This document shows, one piece after another, positions 12,357-13,991 of a DNA stretch of 36,375 nt. This DNA is from Balneolales bacterium (GTDB lineage: Bacteria; Bacteroidota; Rhodothermia; Balneolales; Natronogracilivirgulaceae), in assembly GCA_007120385.1 (NCBI GenBank), contig SKNT01000191.1, forward strand, positions 1 to 36,375, read 5' to 3'. The translations under genes were made by a program, and so were the position numbers. Below the pieces are notes generated by a model, which saw only the letters and a program-made list of their open reading frames with translations, did not search any database and had not been told where the DNA came from. Numbering within the stretch: position 1 is the first letter of the stretch; the number at the start of each line of letters is the position of its first letter.

Positions 12357-12665
12357 GCGTTCGTTTCGGTTAGTTATTGATGTGGATAATCTGATGGTAT
12401 ACGGGAAAAAGCCTCTCAGGGTTCACAGAAAAGTCATTTTGATCTCCAGTCGACTAAAAGTATAAGGATTCCGGCAATTAAAGGCATCGGGCAGGTAATA
12501 TCAAAATGATTATTTCTTAACATTTACCCGATTTGTGCCTCATCCTGGGTCCGATGTCCTGACGAAATGGAACGACCCATCCAAAATGAAAATAGATTGC
12601 GGGGCAACCTTTTGTCCGCACACTGCGTATAGCGGAGCTGAACGATCTGAAAACGCATCCAAACA
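12357..12665. other. intergenic region between the M16 and macA genes, 5' part
   Basis: About 310 bp between divergent genes. It should contain the minus-strand promoter for the M16 pair and possibly the plus-strand macA promoter. I see no gene with support and no clear promoter pair. Downstream of it lie the tandem units described separately. Confidence 0.45.
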
Positions 12666-12780
12666 TTTAAACAGATGAACCGAAGGTCACGAAGTGCTAT
12701 GTCCATGACCGTCGACCGGTCACACATGAGCATGATTAAAAACGTCATGGACATTCTATGTGACCTTAGAAATCCAAAGT
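12666..12780 (+). repeat. upstream unit A of a duplicated inverted-repeat element before macA
   Basis: It begins with TTTAAACAGATGAA (12666-12679). An outer inverted repeat AAGGTCAC/GTGACCTT lies at 12683-12690 and 12760-12767. An inner perfect 11-bp one, ATGTCCATGAC/GTCATGGACAT, lies at 12699-12709 and 12744-12754. The loop holds the palindrome GACCGGTC (12714-12721) and ATGATTAAA. It aligns along most of its length with unit B. A 36-codon frame (12675-12785) runs through it. Confidence 0.75.
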
Positions 12781-12895
12781 TTTAAACACATGAAATGAAC
12801 ATGACAGCCTCCGGCTGACACACAGGAGGATGATTAAATCCTGTCATGTGAATTCATTCTGACCATATGAATCTAAATTGATTTAAACAGATGAA
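12781..12895 (+). repeat. unit B of the duplicated element, plus third motif copy containing the macA start
   Basis: It begins with TTTAAACACATGAA (12781-12794). Its inverted repeat is CATGACAG/CTGTCATG (12800-12807, 12841-12848), flanked by AATGAA (12794-12799) and TTCATT (12853-12858), with ATGATTAAA in the loop at the same place as in unit A. A third copy of the head motif, TTTAAACAGATGAA, lies at 12882-12895 and includes the macA ATG at 12891. The spacing of the three head motifs is 115 and 101 bp. Confidence 0.75.
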
Positions 12896-13991
12896 ACGCA
12901 TACTTATTACAGTCGGAATAATTGCCGTGGCAGGAGCTGCCGCAGCATGGGTTTATACCTCGGGAAATGGCGACGGCAATTCCGTCGGAAATGACCTGGT
13001 CAAAGTGGAACGGGGCAACCTTGTGGAATTTGCCCTGGCGGTCGGGCACATAGAGCCACGCAACGAAATTGAGGTTAAATCCAAAATATCAGGAGTAGTC
13101 AACAAGGTTTACGCCGAACCGGGCGACTATGTGAAGAAAGGTCAGCCGCTTCTGGAAATACGTCCGGATCCGACCCCGCTGGAACTTGCAGAAGCCAAGC
13201 GTAATGTGGAGCGGACCGAAATCGCATTGGAAAACCTTCAGCGCGAGATGTTCCGCATGGAGCAGCTTCGTGCGCGCGATATGGTGTCGGATCACGACTA
13301 CCAGAATTTGATGCGCAATCTCAGGGATGCCGAAATCAACCTCCAGCTGAATCGTGAACGACTTGAACTGCTTGAATCGGGACGCATTCTGATCGGTGAG
13401 ACACTCATTGAAAGTGTTATAAAGGCGCCGACCGATGGCTACATCCTTGAAAAGATGGTGGATATCGGGGATCCCATTGTCCCGTTGACATCCTACCAGG
13501 CCGGCACACCGCTTATGACGCTGGCGCGTATGGACGATCTGCTTTTCAAGGGGACCGTGGATGAGATCGACGTCGGCAAACTCCAGGAGGGAATGGAGGT
13601 CGAGATTCGTGTCGGGGCGCTCCCCGGCGCACAGGTCAGGGGCGAACTCACCCGCATTTCACTCAAAGCGACCACACGCGACAACAGCACTGTTTTTCCG
13701 GTGGAAATCCGGATCACGGACAATGACGGCCGCGTTCTCAGGGCCGGGTACTCTGCAAATGCCAATGTGGTGATCGACCGGCGCGAAGACGTGCTGATCA
13801 TACCCGAGCGGGTCGTGACTTACATGGATGGCCGCAGTGTGGTGGATGTGCCTTCCCGAAATGAAAATGGGCGCAAGGAAACCGAAGTGACGCTCGGACT
13901 CAGCGACGCCATTCACGTGGAGGTCGTCGAGGGGCTCAAGGAAGGCGATACGGTTCTCGAGAAGCCGCTGCGTTCACTGGCCTCCAACTGA
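12891..13991 (+). CDS. MacA-like periplasmic adaptor (HlyD/RND membrane-fusion protein)
   Basis: 366 aa. One N-terminal membrane anchor (about residues 4-22) is followed by a biotinyl-lipoyl-like half (VKSKISGVVNKVYAEPGDYVKKGQPLLEI), a short alpha-hairpin (about 100-165), the second lipoyl half (IKAPTDGYILEKMVDIGD) and beta-barrel and membrane-proximal domains (about 210-360). Family members link an inner-membrane transporter to an outer-membrane TolC-type channel. The two downstream permeases make this a MacA-type partner. No TolC gene is present. The short hairpin agrees with MacA-like rather than RND adaptors. Its start codon is embedded in the last copy of a repeated 14-nt motif, so expression may be controlled through the upstream duplicated structure. 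Confidence 0.87.
   Translation: MKRILITVGIIAVAGAAAAWVYTSGNGDGNSVGNDLVKVERGNLVEFALAVGHIEPRNEIEVKSKISGVVNKVYAEPGDYVKKGQPLLEIRPDPTPLELAEAKRNVERTEIALENLQREMFRMEQLRARDMVSDHDYQNLMRNLRDAEINLQLNRERLELLESGRILIGETLIESVIKAPTDGYILEKMVDIGDPIVPLTSYQAGTPLMTLARMDDLLFKGTVDEIDVGKLQEGMEVEIRVGALPGAQVRGELTRISLKATTRDNSTVFPVEIRITDNDGRVLRAGYSANANVVIDRREDVLIIPERVVTYMDGRSVVDVPSRNENGRKETEVTLGLSDAIHVEVVEGLKEGDTVLEKPLRSLASN

Follow-up and report, generated by a model that had tools for sequence, protein, structure and literature searches.

A start-codon-embedded structured repeat in front of a macA-like gene belongs to a widespread, probably mobile family in Bacteroidota

Four described kinds of small elements come closest to the repeat treated here, a tandem array of two structured units and a remnant that ends on the start codon of a macA-like gene of a Balneolales bacterium (assembly GCA_007120385.1, contig SKNT01000191.1, positions 1 to 36,375 of the forward strand; this whole stretch of 36,375 nucleotides is called the window below). 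IS200/IS605 elements have no terminal inverted repeats, as is also the case for the element in question. In IS608, base pairing between the element and its target determines the choice of target (PMC5934647). REP and REPIN sequences are small palindromic repeats of high copy number (PMC8266576; PMC3116915), and Rickettsia palindromic elements are dispersed units of ~150 nt that are tied to coding sequences (PMC10969869). Moreover, TAACTGA direct repeats of Beggiatoaceae and some Bacteroidetes stand in sense orientation immediately before the start codons of many genes, with a possible post-transcriptional role (PMC4679880). 

In the window, three exact heads, TTTAAACA[GC]ATGAA, begin at 12666, 12781 and 12882; shuffled windows held on average 0.32 such matches at up to two mismatches, and never 4. 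The heads are spaced by 115 and 101 nt and bound two intervals that align with each other, as a preliminary description of this DNA had stated. Read from many relatives, the repeat unit runs from ATGAA up to the base preceding the next ATGAA and ends in ...TTTAAACA[GC]. We consider it probable that the array represents two copies and a remnant of a miniature mobile element of Bacteroidota, non-coding and structured, which inserts at ATGAA and carries an internal guide matching this target.

Like IS608 and other IS200/IS605 elements, this element has a short fixed target beside it and a structured single strand, and pairing could choose the target. Unlike them, it has ATGAA at both ends, its guide also pairs with its own last three bases, it sits on start codons, and TnpA (PF01797) is missing from most of its hosts in the family. 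Small size and many copies are shared with REP/REPIN sequences and their RAYT (TnpA-REP) system; however, our element is not a GTAG-tagged palindrome of 20-40 nt (PMC3733652), sits 5′ of genes on ATG, and has no cognate Y1 transposase in most family hosts. Rickettsia palindromic elements resemble it in size, number, dispersal and association with coding sequences, but are peptide-coding and lie as in-frame fusions within open reading frames (ORFs), whereas this element ends before the ORF and supplies its start codon. We found no in-frame peptide insertion inside ORFs: the terminal ATG is the gene start, frames joined across the flanks close upstream, and frames within units vary. With TAACTGA repeats only the location before start codons, the sense orientation and the many genes are shared, since those are 7-nt tandem repeats without hairpin unit, insertion boundary or target core. 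Terminal inverted repeats, as in miniature inverted-repeat transposable elements, were not found either: the left end reads ATGTCCATGAC..., the right end reads ...TTTAAACA[GC], and the arms of stem P1 (see below) are not right-terminal.

Copies, empty sites and placement on start codons

The source genome, a Balneolales metagenome-assembled genome (MAG) of 2.96 Mb in 239 contigs, holds ~100 copies: BLAST with the array gave 65 matches there, and a covariance model (R1) gave 100. By R1, 17 of the 20 genomes of the host family carry the element, with 4 to at least 149 matches per genome among the best 150 candidates scored. A wider model (R2) matched 21 of 395 sampled Bacteroidota genomes, in 13 of 171 genera, at E 1e-4. 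Relatives that carry the sequence pattern are mostly MAGs of Balneolales/Balneolaceae, and nearly all are CSSed and DLM2 bins, which we take to be soda-lake samples. Tandem arrangement is common, with 119 single, 76 double, 19 triple and 2 quadruple arrays among the 216 arrays in the loci on which this count was made. Searches of viral contigs with two patterns and of plasmids with two queries gave no match, so that carriage by phages or plasmids is not indicated within these collections. Several contigs of the source genome stop within or beside units (for example G000:C118, C158, C80 and C147); units thus break short-read assemblies, and real copy numbers probably exceed these counts. In addition, two contigs of one sample series, labelled Nealsonbacteria (L107, PWOE01000024.1) and Bacteroidales (L191, PWNQ01000162.1), bear a Balneolales-type unit, and either mis-binning or transfer may account for them.

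This abundance bears on the function that the preliminary description had proposed, namely drug-sensing control of macA by a leader-peptide attenuator or a double operator. Two homologous units do stand before an efflux-type gene, and unit A does contain the 36-codon frame that had been noted. However, ~100 copies precede unrelated genes, macA orthologues carry one unit or none, and the length of the frame varies, most long-unit relatives having 15-39 codons, some 2, and short units 2-4. A conserved leader peptide was dropped as a candidate because of this variation from 2 to 39 codons, and macA-specific control of either type is now very improbable. The broader claim of a regulatory element before macA survives in part, since the array lies in the presumed macA leader but is not specific to this gene; a regulatory role may exist without being specific to drug efflux. 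Many scattered copies at unrelated sites had been named as the mark of a simple dispersed repeat, and scattered copies were indeed found, but their sites are mostly start codons or 5′ leaders, with the unit in sense.

Orthologous loci show the start of macA in several states. In genome G007, the start is bare (...ttatacatt|ATGAAACGC), in G008 it bears one unit, in G004 a remnant, and in the window two units and a remnant; two more distant orthologues (L039 and L040) are also free of the element. At least five further genes have element-free orthologous starts at an intact ATGAA (L114, L130, L189, L116 and L113). Inspection by eye of L100 and L085 shows that the TGA stop codon of the upstream gene lies within the left ATGAA and that the next gene starts at the right one. 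Because these two loci split the stop and start functions of an ATGA overlap, ATGAA is truly present twice.

ATGAA forms the next five bases after 257 of 263 full units. The 176 terminal heads comprise 113 with a frame of at least 60 codons (median 271), 54 with a shorter closed frame and 9 with a frame that reaches the contig end; other ATGAA sites of the same loci open a frame of at least 60 codons in 705 of 2807 cases. Many of the heads with short frames sit 8 to 400 nt before a gene on the same strand. For the 94 of 113 long-ORF heads with a located left edge, we joined the flanks across the element; the upstream frame closed after a median of 9 codons (91 closed cases), and stayed open for at least 40 codons in 7 of 94. 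Because these joined frames close quickly, the ATGs of these heads are gene starts, not internal methionines.

In distant Bacteroidota, placement on start codons is sharper than among these 176 heads. Genome G133, a single contig, has 15 located right ends, of which 13 open long frames (5 of its 20 loci had no right end by regular expression and stand outside this count). In a late set of 39 units from 13 genomes, the ATG after the unit starts an ORF of 121 or more codons in 33 cases; 32 of the 39 units come from genomes outside the wider alignment A2 described below and 7 from genomes within it (G167, G213 and G048). Because both the helix and ATGAA are part of R2, the model by which the late set was found, the ORF lengths of this set are its one property not biased by the search. 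Counted against background, 69 of 122 element ends lie near gene starts (8 further ends lie inside gene calls), compared with 122 of 365 non-genic background ATGAA sites. The ends away from starts point in the direction of the neighbouring gene in 37 cases and opposite in 9 (background, 127 and 89).

ATAAA replaces ATGAA at a few right ends (L143, L101, L142, L356 and L364), and at L356 and L364 the true start follows directly. Moreover, purQ-like (L182, L220, L032 and L119) and rmlA-like (L018, L124 and L152) starts carry clearly different units at each locus in more than one genus, which may reflect either old insertions with turnover or repeated hits.

Pairing within the unit and with the start codon

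Stem P1 begins directly after the left ATGAA or, in long units, after an extra module, and hairpin P2 lies inside P1, beside a conserved CACACA.GG.G.ATGATTA stretch. In the window, the P1 arms of unit A are ATGTCCATGAC (12699-12709) and GTCATGGACAT (12744-12754), and those of unit B are ATGAACATGACAG (12795-12807) and CTGTCATGTGAAT (12841-12853), which are mismatched at the foot of the stem; P2 of unit B (AGCC/GGCT) spans 12806-12816. The CATGAC/GTCATG-type arms noted earlier are therefore present as claimed, and covariation over many units bears out the suggestion of structured units in tandem, with pairing maintained by compensatory change. The covariation score was 0.148 for 57 units of the source genome compared with at most 0.091 for slid columns, 0.248 compared with at most 0.026 for 100 units of many genera with a third helix included, and 0.323 compared with at most 0.066 for the 39 late units, which were aligned with the model and so lean to it. 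From the first alignment (A1), 8 mis-registered rows of 65 had been removed beforehand. RNAalifold on A1 gave P1 only, with P2 poorly aligned, and the third helix emerged with the wider alignment A2. Units of the type found in genome G221 keep tandem G.A/A.G mismatches (ATC-GA-GCAT/ATGC-GA-GAT) at positions that are Watson-Crick paired in other units.

Two further foldings were set aside. The 3′ hairpin ATTC/GAAT, which is part of model R1, is weaker, with its third pair broken in 28 of 57 rows, and a GGTCA/TGACC pseudoknot seen by eye is not compensated in the GGACACAC copies. Rfam 15 gave no match to the window at gathering score; for the array, it returned only a chance miRNA match (E 0.78), and for 14 distant loci none at E 0.1.

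The third helix joins an internal motif, TTN[CT]AT-S-TG, which we call the guide, to the right end CA-S′-ATGAA, start codon included. In unit A, the guide TTCTATGTG (12754-12762) is complementary to the right-end head CACATGAA (12787-12794), which consists of the last 3 nt of unit A and the ATGAA core of unit B; in unit B, the guide TTCATTCTG (12853-12861) is complementary, with a 1-nt bulge, to CAGATGAA (12888-12895), which contains the macA start codon at 12891-12893. The pair S:S′ was followed in 265 units found by BLAST, by patterns or by R1, a model that is without this helix. The counts were C:G 109, G:C 98, A:T 4, C:C 19, G:G 29 and rarer combinations 6, and the two positions covary (Fisher p 8e-25, with related sequences counted singly). 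Among the late units, A:U stands at this position in 5 of 39. In addition, two copies of one shared insertion with a right ATAAA have a guide U opposite the changed base, where the others in the set have C. This is one event, and U pairs with G too, hence it is suggestive only.

A helix that covers the AUG may also be expected of a cis-regulatory RNA that serves the host, in which P1/P2 and the CACACA.GG.G.ATGATTA loop would sense a ligand, a protein or temperature and open or close the guide/head helix, the units being spread by recombination and kept for translation control. The covarying helix around the AUG agrees with this view, as do the sense orientation of most copies (37 and 9 for non-start ends, background 127 and 89) and the purQ-, rmlA- and other-like starts that bear units at several loci, the first two in more than one genus. 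However, the target genes are unrelated and show no common pathway, and at a single gene, macA, the site may be empty or bear one unit, two units or a remnant. Moreover, S:S′ pairing is equally frequent at internal heads, where no gene starts, and at terminal heads (59 of 76 and 104 of 136 in Balneolales). This equality speaks for a pairing that is kept for mobility rather than for gene control, and we regard the host-serving explanation as unlikely.

Search for a mobiliser and proposed course of insertion

A Y1 (HUH) transposase acting in trans could move an element of single-strand DNA that resembles REP/REPIN sequences or derives from IS200/IS605. A small hairpin that has no terminal inverted repeats and a flanking pentamer as target would fit, IS608 offers a precedent for recognition of the target through pairing (PMC5934647), and Y1 genes were found in 6 of 7 distant hosts tested. 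However, Y1 genes (PF01797) were not found in 14 of the 17 element-bearing family genomes, including G000, G008, G012 and G017 with their 41 to at least 149 copies, nor in G213 with 10 element matches, and they are present in all three element-free family genomes. One Y1 gene does lie near units in G221 (L375, 1578-2210), but the two units there point the opposite way; separate CCCCTTCGGGG repeats at this locus may be that gene's own REPs. We therefore judge a Y1-moved element quite improbable.

Reverse transcriptase genes (PF00078), which a group II intron or retron would call for, were not found in 15 of the 20 family genomes, nor DEDD transposase genes (PF01548) of bridge-RNA elements of the IS110 type in 17 of the 20, in both cases including the source genome. 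Several genomes are incomplete MAGs in which single absences are weak, so that only the overall pattern counts; by this pattern Y1, reverse transcriptase and IS110 are all disfavoured as mobilisers, their genes being missing from most family hosts. A long parent element with the same ends was not found in 14 stretches of one genome, G221, where the left-end and right-end patterns gave 71 and 55 matches among the matches listed; a compact unit followed nearly every left end, one unit ended imperfectly and some stretches were interrupted by Ns.

The reverse transcriptase result also bears on a mini-intron or translational bypass element, which would be removed or skipped in RNA and thereby join both ATGAA copies. 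The identical ATGAA at both ends would fit, as would the resemblance of the junction-spanning guide to an internal guide sequence. Besides the lack of PF00078 in most family genomes, however, removal is unnecessary when the right ATGAA is an intact start, and known self-splicing introns are far larger than the ~100 nt available here, which makes this explanation highly implausible.

According to the mobile-element explanation that we favour, insertion would take place at the pentamer ATGAA, usually at the start codon of a gene. The pentamer would be duplicated or reused, with the left ATGAA serving the upstream side, sometimes as stop codon, and the right one becoming the start codon, while the A/T-rich 3′ end TTTAAACA[GC] would take the place of the initiation region. 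The target would be chosen by base pairing of the guide TTN[CT]AT-S-TG with CA-S′-ATGAA, and once at a start codon, the guide/head helix would enclose the AUG of the mRNA and could make translation weaker or conditional. Tandem arrays such as that at macA would arise when further copies insert at either ATGAA. Movement itself would be brought about by an enzyme.

Several observations weigh against this explanation or limit it. We infer movement from copies and empty sites, and no mobiliser was found. Mismatched C:C or G:G stands in 48 of the 265 guide/head pairs, and predicted pairing of the AUG is only moderately higher with the unit (0.78) than with shuffled units (0.57). The slid columns are the sole control for relatedness in the covariation scores. 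In P1, wobble pairs and A.C combinations number 36 and 23 (p 0.12), a difference that is not significant and leaves RNA or single-stranded DNA undecided. Moreover, 54 of the 176 terminal heads open a short frame only, some of them with no same-strand gene downstream, and specificity for ATGAA, together with loss of intragenic hits, explains much of the bias towards start codons.

With these reservations, we take the widespread start-codon-embedded mobile element to be real, with macA as one of many insertions, and undescribed as far as our searches reach; no description was found in the open-access literature, which does not show that none exists. To our knowledge, few examples of base-pairing-guided insertion are known. 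We put forward, tentatively and with some doubt, that the element represents a new mobile class that finds start codons by pairing: an RNA or single-stranded DNA of ~85-120 nt with a junction-spanning guide and no recognisable transposase or reverse transcriptase of the tested families, whose insertion makes the start codon the closing strand of a hairpin, and which would be both a selfish repeat and a genome-wide translational switch.

If the mobile-element explanation holds, each genome of these Balneolales has dozens to more than 100 sites that bear a mobile structured leader on the start codon, the number being lower in other families of Bacteroidota, and such leaders would escape annotation. 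A selfish element could then occupy essential genes without killing them, by means of the duplicated ATGAA and a portable initiation region. These insertions would also form a natural experiment on start-codon sequestration, and would pose the question of the mobiliser in hosts mostly without Y1, reverse transcriptase or IS110 genes.

Parts of the array at macA and minor observations

All features of the array lie on the forward strand. A block at 12600-12650 (AACCTTTT...GCGTATAG) is kept in all four aligned macA orthologues (the window, G004, G007 and G008), including the element-free one, and is probably the native macA promoter region. Because this probable promoter block stands left of the array, the mRNA of macA should carry the array in its leader. 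The first head belongs to the tail of a third unit, older and truncated, of which 20 nt are left (12655-12674); its ATCCAAACATTTAAACAG (12657-12674) resembles tails of complete units elsewhere, such as that at L032. Unit A, of the long type (12675-12789, 115 nt), was supported by BLAST and by the covariance-model match L001:1542-1640. It opens with its left ATGAA core (12675-12679), followed by the extra module CCGAAGGTCACGAAGTGCT of long-type units (12680-12698). Unit B, of the short type (101 nt), occupies 12790-12890. No third unit begins at the third head, which consists of the right end of unit B and the macA start. The macA-like gene (12891-13991), which has an element-free orthologue at L088, encodes an HlyD-family membrane fusion protein, and two MacB-like permease genes come after it.

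Two small modules, CCGAAGGTCACGAAGTGCT and CCCAGTGAAACGCGTAAGCG, which contain short hairpins looped by GAA or GTAA, stand at varied positions of different units (12680-12698 in the window; L011, L052, L205 and L228), as if they were separate tiny repeats nested in the element. In G221, many copies (L301, L304, L311 and L320-L332) carry extra hairpins, TCCCGA...TCGGGA and CCCCGAT...ATCGGGG, at two fixed positions of the unit, and these give rise to length classes of ~95 and ~119 nt.
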